DNA from: a virus
IMG/VR virus record: IMGVR_UViG_3300046010_005840
Location: 1-38,090 of that record
Strand: one strand, 5' to 3'
DNA: 38,090 nucleotides
A model generated the notes under the pieces. That model saw only the letters and a program-made list of their open reading frames with translations. It was not told the DNA's origin and did not search any database. A program made the position numbers and the translations under genes. Shown one piece after another: positions 23,145 through 38,090 of the stretch. How positions within the stretch are numbered: the first letter of the stretch is position 1; each line of letters starts with the position of its first letter.

Positions 23145-24059
23145 TTAGTCTGTGCATCCTCCACTATCACAGGTGGCATAGCCAAGACGCGCTTCTGCTA
23201 TGACCTCCATGCCAATGGATTCTTTGTTTTCTGCAATGTGCTGGTACGTTATCCTACTGTCCAGCCATGTTCCCATGCCCTTGTACTCTTGGTCAATGAA
23301 CCATTTGAACTTCTCCGGATGGATGTCTGCCATTGCCGCAAGTGTTTCGGGCTTCTTGTGAAAGCATCCGATGCAGTTGCTGATTGCTGGGAACTTGATC
23401 TGCCTTCGCTCTTCGAACAATGTGCCACCTACCCATCCATTCGCTTTCCAGTAGTCACCTACGGCATCCTGCGTGATACCATCCTGCACTAACGGAAAGG
23501 AGCAGTAACGCCAGTTGAATGTCTCATGCACTTGTCGCTTGTGACCTGTGGTCTTCGATGCTACAGGAATGCGGAAGTTCGTTGGGTCTGAATTGTTGAA
23601 GAAGTTCTGCATCCGTCGGAATTCATCGAACCGAAAGCCTATGCGCATTTCGCACTTCTCGCCGATGTTGTGCCACCACCATAGGAATATCGGCAGCATT
23701 TTCATTTGATTGGTGCAGTATCTACGCGCCCAGCTTGGTAGATAAGACCCAGCGCCTCGCTTGTCTATAATCTGATCGAAACTCATTCCACGCACCCATG
23801 TGATTTGCTTGCCCATCAATTGCTCAAGGTCCATCATTAGCAGCAGCGTGGCATCATCCTCCGCTGTTGCGATGAACTCGCCAAACTGGTTGGAAAACGA
23901 TGCCAGCTTCTGCTCTGCGTACTTGCGAACAGCATGGTCTTTAGGTGCAGCATACTTTTGGTCAATGCATACCACAGAGAACACATCATGGTCTGCCGGA
24001 TAATGCACGGCCATGAATGCCGATGTCTTGCCGCCTGATATGCTGTTGACGGTAATCAC
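23145..24059 (-). CDS. PAPS reductase-like / adenine nucleotide alpha-hydrolase protein
   Basis: A 304-residue protein. The N-terminal PP-loop NSISGGKTSAFMA, the second-half motif RRYCTNQMKMLP and the Cys pairs SNCIGCFH and CDSGGC near the C-terminus are typical of the phosphoadenosine phosphosulfate reductase-like branch of the adenine nucleotide alpha-hydrolase superfamily. Members activate substrates with ATP, including sulfate reduction, tRNA thiolation and DNA phosphorothioation (DndC-like). Phage copies are widespread but rarely characterised. The gene sits between TerL (ATGA overlap) and the tail chaperone and is visibly more AT-rich than its neighbours. That suggests later acquisition. 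A role in thiol or nucleic-acid modification is inferred; sulfate assimilation is also possible. Confidence 0.75.
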   Translation of the reverse strand: MITVNSISGGKTSAFMAVHYPADHDVFSVVCIDQKYAAPKDHAVRKYAEQKLASFSNQFGEFIATAEDDATLLLMMDLEQLMGKQITWVRGMSFDQIIDKRGAGSYLPSWARRYCTNQMKMLPIFLWWWHNIGEKCEMRIGFRFDEFRRMQNFFNNSDPTNFRIPVASKTTGHKRQVHETFNWRYCSFPLVQDGITQDAVGDYWKANGWVGGTLFEERRQIKFPAISNCIGCFHKKPETLAAMADIHPEKFKWFIDQEYKGMGTWLDSRITYQHIAENKESIGMEVIAEARLGYATCDSGGCTD

Positions 24060-26944: not shown

Positions 26945-27592
26945 ATGATAGTAGCATCGACATGCTTTCATGGTAGGGAGTTATTAACACGGATGTGGAT
27001 AGAGCACACGTTGCCGCTGATGCCGGTGGTGGTGGCGGTGAGTGATGATGGTGGCGAGCAATTGGCACAAGAGTATGGGCTGACTTATGTCAGATGCGAG
27101 AACAGGCCGCTGGGTGCCAAGCACAACGCTGCGATGGCGCTGGCCCGTGCGATGGACTCCGACAAGGTGGTCATCCTGCCGAGCGACGACTTCATCCACC
27201 CGGCCTATGTGGCGGCGGTGCTGGAGAGCGCCGCGCCGTACATCTTCCCTGCCAGCTGCGGCTTCCTCGACCAGCGGACGCGGCGTGCGTGCCTGATGCG
27301 CTGGGGTGGTGGTGACACCCTGCTGTATGGTGCTGGGCGTGTGGTGAGCAGGGCGGTGCTGGCGGCGGTTCCGCTGCTGTGGACGCCGACGCGCCTCAAG
27401 GGGCTGGATCAAGATAGCCATTGCACCATCCGCTCGGCAGGCTTTGACGCCACGGCCATCGACGTGCAGGGCGGCGTGTGCCTGACGGACGTCAAGACCG
27501 GGGAGAACCTGTGGGGCTATGACATCGTGGCCCATCGGGCGAGCACGGTGGACGCTCATCTGGTCATGAGCCATGTCTCCTGCGCTATCTGA
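26945..27592 (+). CDS. Glycosyltransferase, GT-A type (only plus-strand gene)
   Basis: A 215-residue protein starting MIVASTCFHGRELL. It shows a Rossmann-like N-terminal half and ENRPLGAKHNAAMALARAMD, then VVILPSDDFIHPAYV with an acidic DD pair where GT-A enzymes bind the metal and nucleotide sugar. Further C-terminal motifs include GLDQDSHCTI. It would transfer a sugar to a glycan, protein or DNA base; the acceptor is unknown. It is oriented opposite to every other gene, abuts a 21-bp divergent gap and overlaps the following methyltransferase gene by 37 bases tail to tail. The ATG at 26945 is preferred over upstream in-frame starts inside the neighbouring gene. Confidence 0.78.
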   Translation: MIVASTCFHGRELLTRMWIEHTLPLMPVVVAVSDDGGEQLAQEYGLTYVRCENRPLGAKHNAAMALARAMDSDKVVILPSDDFIHPAYVAAVLESAAPYIFPASCGFLDQRTRRACLMRWGGGDTLLYGAGRVVSRAVLAAVPLLWTPTRLKGLDQDSHCTIRSAGFDATAIDVQGGVCLTDVKTGENLWGYDIVAHRASTVDAHLVMSHVSCAI

Positions 27593-28158
27593 TGCAGACG
27601 TTCGTCACGGGTGGCGACGAGCATGCCGCGCTTGGTGGCTTCACCCACGCGGTCCTCGGTGTCGGTGGTGATGAGCCATCCTGACTCGAGGAGGTGGTGG
27701 TGCAGGAGTGCGGCCCCTTCGCAGTAGGGGTATCCTGCGTCGGTGCTGGTGATGTCGTGCGCCACGATGATGCGCGGGGTGTTGACCTCGAGGGCCTCTA
27801 TCTCCTCGACCACGCTGTCCATGTCGTGGTTGCCATCGACGAGCACCAGGTCGAACGGTGGCATGGCATAAAGTATGTCACACCCTTTGTGCTGATGCAG
27901 GGTGCCCCGGTCACCGATGACCTTGCGGGCCTCGAGGGTGAAGCCGATGTCGGCGAAGTGTGCGTCGGGCACCTTGGCGGCGATGAAGGCGGAGGCTGAC
28001 GCTCCGGTATGGACACCTATCTCGAGGGTGCGCTGGACGCCTGTCTGCATGAGGAGGTATCGGAGCCACAGGATGTGGCGGCGGTCCATGCAGGCGCCTT
28101 GGTCATGCCAGTCAGGTATCCACGGGGTCAGGTCGAGGATGTCGATGTAGGTCTTCAT
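27556..28158 (-). CDS. SAM-dependent methyltransferase (Methyltransf_24-like)
   Basis: A 200-residue class I methyltransferase with motif I TLEIGVHTGASASAF, an acidic residue in DAHFADIGF at the adenosine position and motif IV-like DLVLVDGNHDMDSVVEEIEA, followed by IIVAHDI. In this family the DGNHD motif is typical of small-molecule or sugar methyltransferases. With glycosyltransferases on both sides it probably methylates a sugar in the glycan they build. Its ends overlap the neighbouring genes (ATGA at 28155, convergent overlap at 27556-27592). DNA methylation is unlikely as the DNA-specific motifs are missing. Confidence 0.78.
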   Translation of the reverse strand: MKTYIDILDLTPWIPDWHDQGACMDRRHILWLRYLLMQTGVQRTLEIGVHTGASASAFIAAKVPDAHFADIGFTLEARKVIGDRGTLHQHKGCDILYAMPPFDLVLVDGNHDMDSVVEEIEALEVNTPRIIVAHDITSTDAGYPYCEGAALLHHHLLESGWLITTDTEDRVGEATKRGMLVATRDERLHQIAQETWLMTR

Positions 28159-28796
28159 AGGCTGTCGAGGATGGCGAGGCGGTCCACGTTGGTGAGGTGG
28201 AGGAGGAAGTCACCGGGTTCCCACGGCATGGGAGCGCGGTCGGGGAAGTTGCGGTTGACGCAGGTGTGGTGGACGGCGTTGAAGGTGCGTCGCGGGTGTC
28301 GGCGCACGAGGCCATCGAGCCACGGCTGGTCCTTCATCGCGGCCCGCAGGCCGTCTTGCTCCCAGCAGCAGATGGGGCGCACGGCATATCGCTCGGAATG
28401 GTTGCGCCACAGGTCGAGGAAGTATGGTGTGCCGGGCTTGTTCCACACGATGAAGTTGCCGCAGGAGACGTAGGTGGTGGTGAGGTCGTCGGGCACCGGC
28501 GCACACCAGTCGATGCTGATGTCCATGACCTGCTGCCCGTAGTAGAGCGGCTCGAGGTCCATGTCTCCGGTGACGTAGGTATCGGCGTCCATCCACATGA
28601 TACCATCATAGGAGCCGATGCGCTCGGTGATGAACTCCAGCTTCTGGTGGCTGGGGTGTGTCCTATCGTGGTAGGTGCGCACGGTCTCATGGGTGTAGCC
28701 GCGACGCTCGGCATAGGCACGCTGGGATGCGGCGCAGCGGTCGCCGACCTCGGCCATATTATCGGTGTAGCCCGTCAGGACCAGGATGTTCGCCAT
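28155..28796 (-). CDS. Glycosyltransferase, GT34-like (213 aa)
   Basis: Begins MANILVLTGYTDNMAEVGDR. The motif IMWMDADTYVTG contains the metal-binding DxD of GT-A enzymes, and VSCGNFIVWNK and CCWEQDGL follow in the order found in galactosyltransferase-like (GMA12/MNN10, GT34) proteins. A histidine-containing stretch near the C-terminus (HTCVNRNFPD) fits the acceptor site. It would add a hexose to a growing glycan. It is coupled to the methyltransferase gene downstream (ATGA) and overlaps the next glycosyltransferase by 22 bases. Confidence 0.75.
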   Translation of the reverse strand: MANILVLTGYTDNMAEVGDRCAASQRAYAERRGYTHETVRTYHDRTHPSHQKLEFITERIGSYDGIMWMDADTYVTGDMDLEPLYYGQQVMDISIDWCAPVPDDLTTTYVSCGNFIVWNKPGTPYFLDLWRNHSERYAVRPICCWEQDGLRAAMKDQPWLDGLVRRHPRRTFNAVHHTCVNRNFPDRAPMPWEPGDFLLHLTNVDRLAILDSL

Positions 28797-29626
28797 TGCT
28801 CTATCGTGTTGATGCGGTTGTGCCAGCGGTCATTGTCGAAGGTCTGCTGTGCTTGGAGCATGCCGAAGGCGGCGGTGTCAGCGGGCTTGTCGATGGCAGC
28901 ACGGACGGCAGCTACCAGCCCATCGGCGCTCAAGGAGGTGCCGTCGATGGTGTAGGCGCCACAGGCGCGGGAGCGCAGGTAGCGGTCGCTGTGGAAGCCA
29001 CGGCGGTTGAAGTGGTCGAGGTTGATGGCGATGAGGGCATCCTTGTAGACCTCGGCATCGGCGCCCTTGTGGAGCATCTTGCCGAAGCCCTTGCCGTAGG
29101 CGCTGAACCGCGAGGGGAAGGCGCGGTGCAGGGCGGCGACTTTGTCTCGGCGGTCGCCGGACAAGGGGAAGCGGTCGCCGTAGTCGTTGCCCACGAACAC
29201 GATGCGGTCGGCAAAGGGGTTGCGGCGGTCGGTGTTATAGATTGTCGGGTCGTAGCCTATCTGGAGGAACCTGCTGTGGTGGCCTATGGCTTGCATCGTC
29301 TCCACGTCCGGCCAGTTGGTGAAGGCGGTGATGTCGACGTGCAGAGCCAGGTCGAGGTAGTGGTCGGGGATGGGGTCGCGGACATCACCGGTCCAGTTGA
29401 TGACCATCGTGCCCTTGGCCTTGATGGCATCGAGGATGGATGGTGCCACCACGTTGGGTGTCTGGAGCTGCATGAAGAGGACATCGTGGTCGCAGGTGTC
29501 CAGCAGCTTGAGCTGCCGTTCGTGGTAGGGCAGGGTGCCCCAGTCGATGCGGTCCACATGGTGGCCGAGGTCGGTGCAGGCGGTGTCGAACTCGGGCATG
29601 CCCATTGCGAGGTGAAGGAGTCTCAT
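28775..29626 (-). CDS. Glycosyltransferase, CgeB-like GT-B (283 aa)
   Basis: Begins MRLLHLAMGMPEFDTACTDL. The N-terminal half contains QLKLLDTCDHDVLFMQ and INWTGDVRDPIPDHY; the C-terminal half has FVGNDYGDRFPLSGDRRDKV and the signature DHFNRRGFHSDRYLRSRACG found in CgeB/GT-B enzymes that end in a nucleotide-sugar site. Such proteins are found with capsule or spore-coat glycosylation. It would attach or extend a sugar chain. The ATG at 29626 overlaps the TGA of the next gene (ATGA), so the cassette is read as one unit. Confidence 0.75.
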   Translation of the reverse strand: MRLLHLAMGMPEFDTACTDLGHHVDRIDWGTLPYHERQLKLLDTCDHDVLFMQLQTPNVVAPSILDAIKAKGTMVINWTGDVRDPIPDHYLDLALHVDITAFTNWPDVETMQAIGHHSRFLQIGYDPTIYNTDRRNPFADRIVFVGNDYGDRFPLSGDRRDKVAALHRAFPSRFSAYGKGFGKMLHKGADAEVYKDALIAINLDHFNRRGFHSDRYLRSRACGAYTIDGTSLSADGLVAAVRAAIDKPADTAAFGMLQAQQTFDNDRWHNRINTIEQWRTSWS

Positions 29627-30180
29627 GATGGATGGACCATTGCGTAAGGTGGTGGCACGGTGAGGGCCTTGGGCTTGCCGCGTCCCCCGCCATAGGTGCG
29701 GTACTCGGTGAGGTGCAGGTGGATGGCGCGGACCTTGGAGCAGGGGTTGGTGACCGTCAGCCCCATGACGCGCAGGACATGGGCGATGGCGTTGTCACAG
29801 CCGGGTATACCCATCTTATAGTGTGCGTCCACCTCCCACGGCCCTCCGCGCACTATCCAGGCATCCTGGCTGTCGGGGCGGTGGTACGGGAAGAGATTTC
29901 TGCCGCCACGGTCATCCCATCGGGAGAGCGCCCACACCTCGTTGGCGTGCAGCTTGTGCGCCTGCTCCCGCAGGGTGTGGTCGAAGTAGATGTCAGAGTT
30001 GGCGATGACGTTGATGTATCCCGGCAGGCACAGGGCGAACATCTCCTTGAAGGTCGGACGGCCATCGATGGCGGTGACCTCATCGAAGATGGCGGCGTTC
30101 TGGTGCCAGCAGTAGAGCAGCTCGGCCTCGCGCTCTTCGGGTCCGTAGAGTTCTTGGGGCTGGATGAGGTGTAGCTTCAT
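29623..30180 (-). CDS. Glycosyltransferase-like protein (185 aa)
   Basis: Begins MKLHLIQPQELYGPEEREAE. The acidic motif VIANSDIYFDHTL and following EVWALSRWDD correspond to the DxD region and acceptor loop of a small GT-A enzyme. A C-terminal RAIHLHLTEYRTYGGG block contains conserved-looking His and Arg. The family is known from Bacteroidota phage and mobile-element genomes; the substrate is unknown. It starts the glycan cassette in transcription order, coupled at both ends by ATGA overlaps. Confidence 0.65.
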   Translation of the reverse strand: MKLHLIQPQELYGPEEREAELLYCWHQNAAIFDEVTAIDGRPTFKEMFALCLPGYINVIANSDIYFDHTLREQAHKLHANEVWALSRWDDRGGRNLFPYHRPDSQDAWIVRGGPWEVDAHYKMGIPGCDNAIAHVLRVMGLTVTNPCSKVRAIHLHLTEYRTYGGGRGKPKALTVPPPYAMVHPS

Positions 30181-33666: not shown

Positions 33667-33861
33667 TCATAGCAGTGTCGTCTGTTGGCCCTCGCTCTCG
33701 CCGAGTTCTCCGAGGATCTGTTCAAGTTCTTGGTCCACCTTCAGTTCAAGGAGCTTGGCTGCATGGAGCCGCCCTTGCGTCCGGTTGGTGAAGTAGTCCT
33801 TCTGCGCCTTGCGCATCGTTCGGACCTTGTGCAGTAGTTCAACGATTGCTTGCCTTCTCAT
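33667..33861 (-). CDS. Small coiled-coil protein (64 aa)
   Basis: Begins MRRQAIVELLHKVRTMRKAQ and has a long Leu-rich helix (LHAAKLLELKVDQELEQILG) with heptad spacing; the N-terminus is basic. It overlaps the end of the primase gene by 23 bases and precedes the methyltransferase gene by 30. It may assist the replication proteins, for instance as a loader or bridging factor, but the function is not known and the family is not recognised. Confidence 0.6.
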   Translation of the reverse strand: MRRQAIVELLHKVRTMRKAQKDYFTNRTQGRLHAAKLLELKVDQELEQILGELGESEGQQTTLL

Positions 33862-36154
33862 GCTTATCTTTTTTAGATGCTTCGATCTCGCGGACCCAGT
33901 TGTAGATCTGCGACCGGCTTACGTTCAGGATGCGTGCCGCCTCAGCCTTCTTCAGATGTGGGTTGGCGGCGTACATGGACGCGAACTTCTCCGCATCGCT
34001 CTTCACCGGCTTATCGCCGGCCGATGCCCTCATCTTGTTGTACTCGGTGCCGTCCTGAAGGACACGCTCAGCCATGGTGATGAAGTAGTCCACCAAGCGT
34101 TCAGCTTTCAGTATGGTGGCCAGCGAAGCCGGTGACGTGAGCGATATGCAGGCATCATAGCAGGCGAGAACATGGAGCAGGATGACGAACCTCGGCAGGT
34201 AGGTCTTCTGCTTGGGCAGGATGCTCTTGGTGGCCTCACCTTCATCCTCGCTGTTCTGCCGCTCGGTGATCTTGTCCATGATCCGGGCAAGCTCGGCGCG
34301 TGCCTCGGGTGAAAGATGGATGAAGCGGGATTGCACATCACCATCCTGGTCGACGATCAGGATGTCGTTATTGATGTGTGCGAAGAGGCTCAGGATGTAG
34401 TCGCTGTACCATTGCAGCGCATCATCGGTCATCTCATTCTCGTTCCATTGCTCCACGTTGCAGTCCGGGTAGCACAGCAGCAGGCGGTCGCTGAACCCAT
34501 TGTCCCGATACTCGGCAGTGAAAATCTGGTTCAAGACCGCTGGCTGGATGCCGCCAAGGACAGGGATCACAGGGGAGTGGATGTAGTTGTCCTTGACCGT
34601 CTTGCGCGTGGTGTAGGCCGGTGAGTTGCTGAAGGCCGACAGGTGGAACTCCAAGTCGCCACCAGCCCGATACTTGTTCATGTCCTTGATCCATCCTGCA
34701 AGCTCATCCTTGTACACGCCCACCGCGTTGGGGTTCTCCTCATGCAGTTCCACAAGCGCCTCGATGGTCACATCGTTCACGATGAACTGTGAGCGCGATG
34801 GCTCGCGCACTTCCTCAGCGTTGGCCTTCTGGTCCTTGCTCAGCTTGTTGTAAGCCTCGAACTGCTCCTTCTTCTTGCGGAACTCTCGGATCTTGCGGCT
34901 GTTGAGTTCCACAAGGGGGCGGATGATGCTGCTCACCGCCGGGGTCTTACCAACACCGGCACGGCCAACGATGGCGATCCACACAATGCAGCTTTCGACC
35001 CAGCCTTTCTTGACTTGGACCTTGATGCTGTTACCCACGATGACCGATAGCTGCCAGAGCAGTGCCGCACCCATGAAGTCCACGTTGTGACCAAGGGTAA
35101 CCGAGCATTCCGTGATATACCGTTGGATGTCTTCTGGGAACACATCAAGCGGGAAGGCTTGCTTCTCGATCTGGGGCGGCTTGATCGTGGTGAGCGCCAC
35201 CGGCGTGGGCTGCTTCATCCTATCGCCGTAGCCTTCAGCATATAGCTGCTTCGCAGCGGCGCTCATGTCACCGCCATGATGCTTCAGCGCATATAGGGAG
35301 AACGGGCTGAGCAGCTTTTCATGCGGATAGGCCGTGCCGGTACTGAACAGGTACATGCATCCGGTGTCCTTGAACACATAGCCGCTGTGGGCCGAGGTAG
35401 CCCCGTGGCGCTTGATAACCGTCTTCTTGGACAGGTTGCGGATGATTTTGAACTCATCACCCACCACGTCGAACACCGTGTGCTTTTGGTCGTAGTCCTG
35501 CCAGGGCGTAATACCAGTGGCATAAAAATCCGTTCGGTCTTTCTTCGGCTGCTCCAGCTCCTGTTGCTCCACGCGCTCATCCCACATCTTGCAGATGGAA
35601 ATGATGCAGTCGTGTTCCTCCTTGGTCAGCAGGCCGATGCCGGTGTAGTCCAGCTCGTTGTGGCTCTCGTCATAGAAGATGGCATAGCCGCCATGGGATC
35701 GCGTTTCGATCAATGCCTGCACGGCCTTGGTGCCCTCATGCTTGATGCCCGTGTTCACAGGAACGGCCAGCTTCACGTTGCCCATATCGGTCACCGTCCG
35801 GTATGTCAGGTGGTAGCCGAAGTTCAGCGTTTTATGGACCGACACCTTGCGGTCGAACCCGTCGATGTTGTCGCGCACCAAGCCGATGAACTCATCGAAC
35901 ATGGCCGCACGCAGTTCCATCGGCAGCACTTTCAGGTCTACGTCGACGCAGAAGATGTCGTTGTAGCCGCAGGCATACCCGAAGCGCCATGCGTTTGGCA
36001 TCGCCATGAAGCCGTCCAGCTCCTGTTTCGTCGCTTGGCGCGTCTGCAACTCCTTCCACTTGTGCAGTGGCATTTTCTTCTCGTCCACCACCAGGACGGA
36101 ATAACCGGCTGCCGTTAGTCCCGCTGCCCTTTCAGTTTTGATGTGCTTACTCAT
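33839..36154 (-). CDS. Primase-polymerase / DUF3987 replication protein with C-terminal HTH
   Basis: A 771-residue protein with three parts. The N-terminal bifunctional primase-polymerase domain (residues about 10-190) has GYSVLVVDEKKMPLHKW and the metal-binding FCVDVDLKV (D71-V-D73). The centre is a P-loop DUF3987 module with Walker A VGRAGVGKT at about 396-404 and further helicase-like sequence. The last 60 residues (NPHLKKAEAARILNVSRSQI, then YNWVREIEA) form a helix-turn-helix. It is the likely replication initiator and primase/helicase. It follows the candidate origin with one gene in between, so the HTH might recognise the CACACTTT repeats; this is a proposal. Slightly lower GC than the structural genes. 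Confidence 0.8.
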   Translation of the reverse strand: MSKHIKTERAAGLTAAGYSVLVVDEKKMPLHKWKELQTRQATKQELDGFMAMPNAWRFGYACGYNDIFCVDVDLKVLPMELRAAMFDEFIGLVRDNIDGFDRKVSVHKTLNFGYHLTYRTVTDMGNVKLAVPVNTGIKHEGTKAVQALIETRSHGGYAIFYDESHNELDYTGIGLLTKEEHDCIISICKMWDERVEQQELEQPKKDRTDFYATGITPWQDYDQKHTVFDVVGDEFKIIRNLSKKTVIKRHGATSAHSGYVFKDTGCMYLFSTGTAYPHEKLLSPFSLYALKHHGGDMSAAAKQLYAEGYGDRMKQPTPVALTTIKPPQIEKQAFPLDVFPEDIQRYITECSVTLGHNVDFMGAALLWQLSVIVGNSIKVQVKKGWVESCIVWIAIVGRAGVGKTPAVSSIIRPLVELNSRKIREFRKKKEQFEAYNKLSKDQKANAEEVREPSRSQFIVNDVTIEALVELHEENPNAVGVYKDELAGWIKDMNKYRAGGDLEFHLSAFSNSPAYTTRKTVKDNYIHSPVIPVLGGIQPAVLNQIFTAEYRDNGFSDRLLLCYPDCNVEQWNENEMTDDALQWYSDYILSLFAHINNDILIVDQDGDVQSRFIHLSPEARAELARIMDKITERQNSEDEGEATKSILPKQKTYLPRFVILLHVLACYDACISLTSPASLATILKAERLVDYFITMAERVLQDGTEYNKMRASAGDKPVKSDAEKFASMYAANPHLKKAEAARILNVSRSQIYNWVREIEASKKDKHEKASNR

Positions 36155-36666
36155 AGTTTCATCCTACTTAACAGGTCCATCTTCTCCACGCCTCTACGCC
36201 ATCCCTCGTGCTCACTCCATATACGGTCACCGGACACTCGGATCATCATGTTCGATGTCCCTTTGCCGTAGTCGGCCCTCAGTTGCTTGATGCCTATATC
36301 GCCGATGCCGAACTGTCCAGCCAATCTGACGACAAACCAGTCATCCGCCGATGTGCGGTCATCCAGCATTGGGCATATCAAGATAGGCAGCCTGGTCTTT
36401 CTCTCCCCCCATATACATTGAGTGTATCCGATGGCCTGCCTCAGCCATGCCGTGATGTCCTTATTCCCATTAAGCTGGTCCGGTGACTTGAACTCAATGC
36501 CGAACACGAACTGGGTGCCGTTCACAAGGTGCCTATGCTGGATCACCATATCTATCCTCTTGCGGATGGATGGGTCATGGATACTATGCCCCCACACCTC
36601 CCGCCAGATGTGCCACTGCGGCTTCAGTCGCTCGGCGTACATATCAACAAACTCCGCTTCTGTCAT
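36151..36666 (-). CDS. PD-(D/E)XK nuclease-like protein (171 aa)
   Basis: Begins MTEAEFVDMYAERLKPQWHI. The segment IRKRIDMVIQHRHLVNGTQF followed by VFGIEFKSPD resembles the D...ExK core of PD-(D/E)XK nucleases, with Asp near 45 and Glu-Phe-Lys near 66. The C-terminal half has strands (RLPILICPMLDDRTS, DWFVVRLAGQFGIG) and ends in LLSRMKL. Coupled by ATGA to the primase-polymerase gene and first behind the main promoter, it probably takes part in replication or in processing replication intermediates. Alternative starts at 36681 (ATG) and 36687 (TTG) exist; MTEAEF is preferred as the others fall in a structured leader. Confidence 0.6.
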   Translation of the reverse strand: MTEAEFVDMYAERLKPQWHIWREVWGHSIHDPSIRKRIDMVIQHRHLVNGTQFVFGIEFKSPDQLNGNKDITAWLRQAIGYTQCIWGERKTRLPILICPMLDDRTSADDWFVVRLAGQFGIGDIGIKQLRADYGKGTSNMMIRVSGDRIWSEHEGWRRGVEKMDLLSRMKL

Positions 36667-36681
36667 TGCGCAGGCAAACAT

Positions 36682-36753
36682 CCACAAGGGGGCTTCGGTG
36701 ACAGCCGAGCCGGAGCGGCGAGCAAGGAGCCTGCTCCGGTTGCCCCCCTGTGG
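36682..36753 (-). promoter_or_regulatory. Structured RNA leader (three-way junction) before replication genes
   Basis: An outer stem pairs 36682-36693 with 36742-36753 (one or two bulges). It encloses two hairpins: 36695-36698 with 36705-36708, and 36710-36716 with 36733-36739 (7 bp). On the minus-strand RNA this forms a three-way junction that ends directly before the ATG at 36681 and 15 bases from the preferred ATG. It could control translation of the first replication gene. Confidence 0.5.
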
Positions 36754-36815: not shown

Positions 36816-36848
36816 CAAATATAGCACTATTCTGTTAGATTACCAAAA
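36816..36848 (-). promoter_or_regulatory. Bacteroidota-type promoter (main leftward promoter)
   Basis: The -7 box TATATTTG (36816-36823, minus strand) matches TAnnTTTG exactly, and TTTTG (36844-36848) provides a full TTTG -33 box with a 20-bp spacer. Transcription would start near 36809 and run into the structured leader and the replication genes. Confidence 0.85.
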
Positions 36849-36869
36849 TGACCTCTTTGGTACCCTGTG

Positions 36870-37143
36870 TACACTTTTTGCACACTTTTGGACACTTTTG
36901 GACACTTCGCAGAATGCCTACATCCCGCGTCCCCGTAGGGAAGTTTGAAAAAAAGTGTGCAAAATGCACACTTTGGACACTTTTCACTTTTTCATGGCCA
37001 AGAGAATCACCAAACATGCCTTCATGCAAAGTGTGCAATTTTGCACACTTTGCATCATAAGTGCCGAACTAATCAAGGAGTTAGAGTGTACACCTTAAAG
37101 TATTTTCAAACACACTTTTGCACACTTTTGCACACTTTGGACA
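36870..37143. repeat. CACACTTT repeat cluster, candidate replication origin
   Basis: At least twelve copies of a 9-10-bp unit related to (C/G)ACACTTTTG occur here: tandem copies at 36870-36909 and 37111-37140, inverted pairs at 36952-36974 and 37024-37055, and a single unit at 36976. The region is AT-rich against a GC-rich genome, has no plausible gene and lies between a terminator and a promoter, near the replication genes. This is iteron-like. Short reading frames in it are translations of the repeats. Confidence 0.7.
37024..37055. repeat. 15-bp perfect inverted repeat with 2-bp centre
   Basis: Arms 37024-37038 and 37041-37055 are perfect complements (starting atgcaaagtgtgcaa) around a TT spacer. 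It is the largest palindrome of the repeat cluster and contains two head-to-head copies of the CACACTTT unit. It is a candidate dimer-binding site or cruciform. Confidence 0.75.
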
Positions 37144-37202: not shown

Positions 37203-37234
37203 AAAAAGCCCCGGAGGACATCCCCCAGGGCTTT
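37203..37234 (-). terminator. Intrinsic terminator ending the leftward transcript
   Basis: The stem AAAGCCC/GGGCTTT (37205-37211 with 37228-37234) is extended inward by two GG/CC pairs across mismatches. On the minus strand it is followed by TTTTT. It lies 68 bases after the stop of the SANT/Myb-like gene, with no minus-strand gene behind it until the origin region. It would end the whole leftward unit. Confidence 0.78.
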
Positions 37235-37301: not shown

Positions 37302-37703
37302 CTACAATTTCCGAGCCCGCAACCTCACCGCCATCGAGCTGCGGTAGAGTATCTCGCCAGCCTGCCGGTAGGACAGCCCCATGTAGAGGAGACCTCGCAG
37401 GCGCTCGTCCTCGCCCTTGGTCCACCGCTTGGTGCTGCGGTCGGGCGGTGGCAAGTCCTTGCGACCCGGTCGGTCGTCGAACAGCTCCCAGCCGCCTCGA
37501 CCTGGAGGCGCGATTTCGCTGCCTGCGGCATAGTCGAGGTAGGTGCCGGTGCCGACGCGTTCACCGGCCTCGACCTCCTCTCGGCTGACGTAGTGCTTGA
37601 CGCCGTCGATGGTGTAGCTGTACGGGCGGCCAAGGGGGGAGCCGTCCTCCGGCTCCCACTCCTTGTCCTTCCAACGGCTGCGCAGGGTGATGACGCTGCC
37701 CAT
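37302..37703 (-). CDS. SANT/Myb-like DNA-binding protein (133 aa)
   Basis: Begins MGSVITLRSRWKDKEWEPED. The last 45 residues (STKRWTKGEDERLRGLLYMG followed by LSYRQAGEILYRSSMAVRLR) form a Myb/SANT-like or GcrA-like helix-turn-helix with conserved Trp, a Gly-Leu-Ser turn and a basic recognition helix; it binds DNA. The N-terminal 85 residues contain strands and an acidic loop of unknown role. It is the last gene before the terminator and origin region, so it may regulate the nearby promoter or bind the repeats. Its ATG overlaps the previous stop by one base (TGATG). Confidence 0.7.
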   Translation of the reverse strand: MGSVITLRSRWKDKEWEPEDGSPLGRPYSYTIDGVKHYVSREEVEAGERVGTGTYLDYAAGSEIAPPGRGGWELFDDRPGRKDLPPPDRSTKRWTKGEDERLRGLLYMGLSYRQAGEILYRSSMAVRLRARKL

Positions 37704-38090
37704 CAGATCTTAGTGGTGTAGATTGTGGTACTGCCGGGCGTGTAGACCGCTGGCTCGATGGCCTCGCCGTCCTCGGTCACCATGCGCTCCCCCGTTCGGT
37801 AGGCCAGCTGGGCCATCTCCTCGACGGTCTTGATCCGCGTGGATAGGTAGGCGTGCGAGGGTAGGTGGCGGTAGGACCACCTGCCGGCAGCGTTCTTGGC
37901 GGTCATGCGCAGGCCCATCGCCGTGCAGCCCTCCGAGCCGTAGCGTTCCACCTCGGTGATGGCGTCGGCCTTGACCGTGGCGATGCACTCCTCCAGCACC
38001 TTGGACAGCGCGTGGAAGTAGGCATAGGCTTCAGCGGCGCGGAGGTCTCCGTTGCTGGCGCTCAGCGCCAGGTCGCGGAGGTAGTTGCTT
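37703..38090 (-). CDS. Small phage protein, 3' part (continues from the left end)
   Basis: This is the C-terminal part of the gene whose start lies at 155; the last in-window bases are inside the terminal repeat. The joined protein is 137 residues. The segment MGLRMTAKNAAGRWSYRHLP followed by KTVEEMAQLAYRTGERM is a pattern of Gly, Arg, Trp and Tyr near a helix that I recall from small proteins of unknown function in Bacteroidota phages. It ends YTPGSTTIYTTKI. The stop overlaps the next start by one base. Confidence 0.7.
   Translation of the reverse strand, partial: SNYLRDLALSASNGDLRAAEAYAYFHALSKVLEECIATVKADAITEVERYGSEGCTAMGLRMTAKNAAGRWSYRHLPSHAYLSTRIKTVEEMAQLAYRTGERMVTEDGEAIEPAVYTPGSTTIYTTKI
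37962..38087. repeat. Right copy of 126-bp terminal direct repeat
   Basis: Identical to bases 1-126. The following three bases (ctt) differ from the left copy (tgg), which is likely an end artefact of assembly. Confidence 0.9.

Follow-up and report, generated by a model that had tools for sequence, protein, structure and literature searches.

The repeat cluster and its genomic surroundings

The window, by which we mean the whole 38,090-nt stretch of DNA that was analysed, comprises positions 1 to 38,090 of the IMG/VR record IMGVR_UViG_3300046010_005840. Its two ends are identical over 126 bp (1-126 and 37962-38087), and the record probably represents a complete, circular assembly of about 37,961 bp (~37.96 kb). 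It carries terminase and tail protein genes, and its coding sequence lies mostly on the minus strand. Phage and plasmid collections contained only distant partial relatives, with about 20-34% identity, and no close annotated phage or plasmid. A search of genome contigs gave five matches, all of them in metagenome-assembled Bacteroidota-type bins. As the type of promoter described below also fits this group, the hosts are probably Bacteroidota.

A cluster of short repeats, the candidate replication origin, occupies positions 36866-37138. On its far side, a terminator-like hairpin followed by Ts (inverted repeat I11, 37205-37234, minus strand) closes the neighboring genes, and the gene for a Myb-like product (37302-37703) adjoins the cluster. 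On its near side, a pattern scan with the general Bacteroidota promoter consensus found the promoter TTTG-N19-TATATTTG (36816-36846, minus strand), facing the primase operon. Downstream of this promoter the operon consists of a gene that looks nuclease-like by eye (36151-36687, minus strand) and the gene of a 771-aa primase-helicase (33839-36154, minus strand), the candidate initiator. The initial annotation had placed the repeats between a terminator and a promoter, next to a primase-polymerase with a C-terminal helix-turn-helix (HTH). Both parts of this description hold, with one gene lying between the cluster and the primase.

The repeats are far more frequent than expected by chance. All eight copies of CACACTTT in the window fall within 36881-37138, compared with an expected number of 0.62, and none of 100 shuffles reached eight. 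Of the core ACACTT, 12 copies lie in 36871-37137 and four in all the remainder of the 38 kb. A refined 12-bp profile yielded 13 sites in the cluster, to which one more unit at about 37107-37118, read as ACACACTTTT, can be added, giving a total of 13-14 where at least twelve in both orientations had been noted. After refinement with the profile, the unit reads AAAGTGTGCAAA on the minus strand, in the same direction as the genes, and has the variants AAAGTGTCCAAA and AAAGTGTACA. Outside the cluster, a profile scan of the window found no excess of units (9 weak matches, against 18 in Markov genomes).

The units are arranged in blocks. An outer array of four direct units on the minus strand, 10-11 bp apart (36866-36877, 36877-36888, 36887-36898, and 36897-36908), is followed by an inner inverted group at 36952-36983, with units at 36952-36963 (plus), 36963-36974 (minus), and 36972-36983 (minus), and a degenerate unit, GAAGTTTGAAAA, at 36940-36951. 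After a central gap without units (36984-37027) comes an inner inverted pair at 37028-37051, with units at 37028-37039 (plus) and 37040-37051 (minus). A single plus-strand unit, AGAGTGTACACC (37083-37094), sits between this pair and the second outer array (37107-37138), which has three direct units on the minus strand, 10 bp apart (37107-37118, 37117-37128, and 37127-37138). The tandem runs at both edges were thus recovered, as were two perfect palindromic pairs, one at 36952-36974 with 10-bp arms and one at 37024-37055 with 15-bp arms, the latter containing the inner pair. In this GC-rich window, the central gap is relatively AT-rich (59%, compared with 39% for the genome, the same figure being given for the locus) and is a candidate melting region.

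The primase-helicase

The 771-aa protein combines a Prim-Pol domain (aa 13-165, family match to PF09250), a DUF3987 domain of predicted helicase function (aa 358-700), and a C-terminal HTH, whose recognition helix, NVSRSQIYNWVREI, includes R750 and N755. DUF3987 was matched by each of 15 family members tested, DUF927 and D5_N/Primase_Cterm by none. A sequence search of solved structures gave no credible match. The AlphaFold2 model of the 771-aa protein has a mean pLDDT of 73, and the modeled N-terminal domain resembles that of pRN1 ORF904 (Foldseek E 5e-6; Z 14.6). For the DUF3987 part, the nearest listed folds are MCM AAA+ domains (Z 13-14 over about 250-285 residues). This resemblance of the model reflects the shared AAA+ fold and fits a helicase prediction, yet proves neither function nor activity. 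DUF3987 has previously been predicted to be a helicase and is found fused to Prim-Pol in mobile elements (PMC5862659).

The cluster accompanies the primase gene

Scans of viral sequences and genomes with the primase family yielded several hundred loci. These were grouped into lineages, defined by primases less than 85% identical to each other, with 48 lineages in a first set and 41 in a later one, about 90 in total. The primases of the first set are 36-69% identical to the window protein. A lineage-specific repeat cluster borders the primase gene, on its 5' or its 3' side, in 47 of the 48 lineages of the first set (43 of these 47 with a cluster score of at least 18) and in 41/41 of the later set (39 at this score). 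No cluster was found in L046, whose 9-kb contig extends just 1.4 kb upstream. Seventeen of 43 lineages have the cluster on the 3' side of the primase gene; in some it begins no more than a few bases from the stop codon.

The repeated words vary between lineages, from AAGTGTAAAC in the largest clade to AAGTGTACA in L007, TTACTGTAAAGT in L005, GTGGGACATTTT in L008, GTGTAACATT in L041, and GGTTTAAAA in L331, the units of L199 and L331 being GGTTTAAA. Among the neighbors tested, the primase is the only conserved one. The two other window genes that flank the cluster have no homologue (the Myb-like gene, 47 other lineages) or a single one (gene 36151-36687, whose homologue adjoins the L007 cluster).

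In one clade (L079:2400-2810, also L034, L038, L059, and L081), a further array of a different kind lies about 3 kb upstream of the primase. It repeats TAGTGGAAA many times in a single orientation, at a spacing of roughly 19-20 bp.

A common layout despite different units

Across the differing unit sequences the same layout recurs: an outer array, an inner inverted pair, an AT-rich gap, a second inner pair, and a second outer array. When 43 lineages were aligned on their largest central gap, the units gave four peaks, around -110, -40, +35, and +110 bp, and no unit lay closer than 20 bp to the center; the empty center is partly given by this construction, the outer peaks are not. The clusters have a median length of 263 bp and a central spacing of 62 bp (IQR 58-67), and neighboring units of the arrays are mostly 10-12 bp apart. 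With a mean AT content of 85%, the central gap exceeds the locus (65%) by 20 points, and the difference is positive in 42 of the 43 lineages (P = 5e-13).

Between the outer and inner blocks, the words ATTGAT/ATCAAT are enriched about six-fold (32 sites against 4-6 expected, in 82 gaps of 43 lineages). This enrichment suggests that a second factor, possibly of the host, may bind there. The sites sometimes appear as GTAACTnATTGATnATCA or TGTTTATAAGG.

The repeat unit changes with the recognition helix

If the HTH reads the units, its recognition helix should change along with them. We calculated the mutual information between variable primase positions and unit positions in 43 lineages, scored against shuffles (614 variable primase columns, 5535 residue-base pairs). 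Both top pairs lie in the recognition helix, namely R750 with base 5 (z 20) and N755 with base 9 (z 10.5). In this main run the register of four units was set by hand; with a fully automatic register, R750 ranked first by mean z and N755 third. An arginine at residue 750 goes with G at base 5, and another residue (Leu, Lys) with T, in 43/43 lineages. The pairing of R755 with ACAT likewise holds in 43/43. On a tree built without the HTH, there were six changes of residue 750 and base 5 and five of the second pair, all of them coupled.

The two rules were then applied out of sample, with no manual step, to the 39 strong-cluster lineages among the 41 fetched afterwards. The rule for residue 750 held in 33 of 39, with six exceptions (P = 1.7e-4), and that for residue 755 in 35 of 39, with four (P = 5.7e-5). 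Several of the misses at residue 750 arise from the strict text pattern, for example in L379, where ATGTAAACC still has G at base 5, although this is a post hoc remark.

The window unit also recurs in a distant lineage, L326. Its primase is only 43% identical overall to that of the window and the clusters lie on opposite sides of the gene, yet VSRSQIYNWVREI is the helix core of both and GTGTGCA their common core unit. The code between residues and bases is not one-to-one, as the helix of L310 differs although its core unit is the same. Taken together, the covariation, including that in the 39 unseen lineages, strongly supports the binding of the units by the C-terminal HTH of the primase. Two readers had been considered originally, this HTH and the Myb-like protein; the comparison favors the former, and none of the other lineages encodes a homologue of the latter.

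Elsewhere in the loci, strong relatives of this HTH were found only in T5orf172/GIY-like proteins (assigned by eye) that lie beside the cluster in L008 (5310-5778) and L014 (3069-3585) and end in a primase-like HTH; there was no second such HTH in the window. These proteins could compete for the units of the cluster or regulate them.

A candidate replication origin

Sequence features of an iteron-type theta origin are present: tandem short repeats, helical spacing, an adjoining initiator gene, and an AT-rich region. The fold of the protein likewise offers parts suited to firing an origin, a Prim-Pol domain like that of pRN1 ORF904 and a domain resembling MCM AAA+. We consider it highly probable that the cluster is the replication origin of the phage, bound by the Prim-Pol/DUF3987/HTH protein, which would load itself and prime. 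Originally proposed for the window as an iteron-controlled origin, this reading gains support from the comparison with relatives, and the origin function itself is inferred from sequence.

Initiation could proceed as follows. The 771-aa protein would bind the 10-bp units through its C-terminal HTH, and the spacing of 10-12 bp would place the copies on one face of the helix. Two half-sites, each consisting of an outer array and an inner inverted group, flank the unit-free AT-rich gap in mirror image, so that two oligomers would assemble facing each other. The MCM-like AAA+ domain of DUF3987 would probably form hexamers in this case, which may melt the center and load without a separate loader. 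The N-terminal Prim-Pol domain would then prime, and the primers would probably be extended by the host polymerase. The bound protein may secondarily repress its own operon wherever the operon promoter directly follows the cluster, as it does in the window.

GC skew, which had been suggested as a check, speaks neither for nor against an origin at the cluster. It was rejected as an independent origin mark, because in the window and in nine relatives it mostly follows the coding strand.

An improbable alternative, already raised in the initial annotation, is a multi-site operator, where binding of the HTH protein would do no more than repress or time the transcription of the early or replication operon. 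It would fit the position of the cluster between two transcription units and the Bacteroidota-type promoter just downstream of it in the window. Such a promoter is present at this place in 10 of 43 lineages, compared with about 1.3 expected, and nine of the ten have 5' clusters. However, of the 17 lineages with the cluster 3' of the primase only one has such a promoter, which leaves the 3' clusters unexplained. Neither the 263-bp four-block mirror layout nor the AT-rich center is needed for an operator, and no excess of units was seen elsewhere in the window. Being present in only 10 of 43 lineages, a fixed downstream promoter was also rejected as the common denominator of the clusters. In addition to serving as origin, the cluster may also be used as an operator.

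Still less probable is a different reader, such as the Myb-like product, a ParB-like protein, or a host factor, acting in partition or transcription. The Myb-like protein is encoded next to the cluster, and the T5orf172-like proteins with their similar HTH adjoin it in two lineages. Against this reading, the Myb-like gene is confined to the window among the lineages compared, ParA/ParB were not found in the subset of window proteins tested, and the site of a host factor would not change between phages in step with the helix of the primase. That the cluster is a low-complexity or chance repeat without function, as its intergenic position and short units might suggest, can practically be dismissed, given the shuffles and a layout conserved across lineages despite different unit sequences.

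Relation to known replication systems

As an origin with its own initiator, the system works like the origins of SaPI/PICI, SCCmec Cch2, and P4, but it falls outside each known system by the features that define it, because the helicase family, the primase type, the satellite lifestyle, or the stem-loop origin differ.

In SaPI/PICI, iteron sets lie on both sides of an AT-rich region, an arrangement called unique to them (PMC6092414); loading in the form of two hexamers has been proposed for SaPI Rep and SCCmec Cch2, both of which recognize iterons (PMC7581432). The likeness lies in an initiator helicase whose C-terminal part binds short iterons at an adjacent origin (PMC6092414, PMC7581432), and in repeat blocks that here, too, are mirrored about an AT-rich center. 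In contrast, SaPI/PICI Rep has DUF927 or D5_N/Primase_Cterm, whereas DUF3987 was found here (15/15 members tested). SaPI/PICI are satellites that need the virions of a helper phage; the window belongs to a tailed phage that itself encodes terminase and tail proteins. Their origin is immediately 3' of rep, while that of the window is 5' with one gene between, and 3' in 17 of 43 lineages. The four blocks, the position on either side of the gene, and the fused AEP primase set the present system further apart.

The alpha protein of P4 is similar in that one polypeptide unites primase, helicase, and a C-terminal HTH/winged-helix domain binding repeats (PMC4234260). In our case the reading of repeats by the C-terminal domain is inferred from the covariation with residues 750 and 755. 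The primase of P4 alpha is of the Toprim type, whereas here an AEP Prim-Pol (PF09250, pRN1-like fold) is joined to DUF3987. Furthermore, P4 has a second, distant repeat site (crr), and no second unit cluster exists in the window. SCCmec Cch2 is likewise a self-loading helicase with iterons (core AAGTG) beside its gene and two proposed hexamers (PMC7581432). It differs in having only three iterons and a D5_N/Primase_Cterm helicase, and its primase is a separate A-family polymerase. AAGTG occurs in the window unit AAAGTGTGCA as well, which may be coincidence.

With pRN1 ORF904 the protein shares the combination of AEP Prim-Pol, helicase, and C-terminal DNA-binding domain, besides the N-terminal fold (Z 14.6). 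The proposed pRN1 origin is a large stem-loop without iterons (PMC4234260), while an iteron array with two short inverted repeats is found here. The pRN1 helicase belongs to SF3 (PMC4234260); ours is assigned by sequence to the family DUF3987, with MCM AAA+ domains as the nearest listed folds. A similar domain make-up is seen in the PrimQH/all3500 primases of the PrimPol-PV1 supergroup, in which Prim-Pol is fused to the predicted helicase DUF3987 (PMC5862659); we found no origin or recognition element for DUF3987 proteins described in that work. Nor did we find a description of the present system, of iterons in Bacteroidota phages, or of DUF3987 origins in the open literature, most subscription journals being outside this scope.

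A possible class of phage replicons

The wider reading, to which we give even chances, is that of a large and apparently undescribed class of phage replicons. In these, one polypeptide, made of AEP primase, MCM-like DUF3987, and HTH, would recognize the origin, load itself as a double hexamer, and prime at a mirror-symmetric origin of four blocks, and the phages would diverge by rewriting unit and recognition helix together. If true, this would yield a readable protein-DNA code as well as specificity of the origins among related phages. In this natural code, bases of the origin unit can be predicted from two positions of the helix. For DUF3987, a domain of unknown function according to Pfam, the comparison proposes a role as initiator helicase with sequence-specific origin recognition, and it predicts origins for about 90 phage lineages together. 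The conserved mirror layout around an AT-rich gap makes the model of two-hexamer loading directly testable in a one-protein system. The layout termed unique to PICI (PMC6092414) is shared by the present tailed phages, whose initiator comes from another helicase family.

Accessory genes of the window

Directly after the terminase gene, the window encodes a phosphoadenosine phosphosulfate reductase-like protein (23148-24059, phrog_424). A run of genes at 27556-30180 looks by eye like glycosyltransferases or sugar-related methyltransferases, which is unusual for a 38-kb phage.
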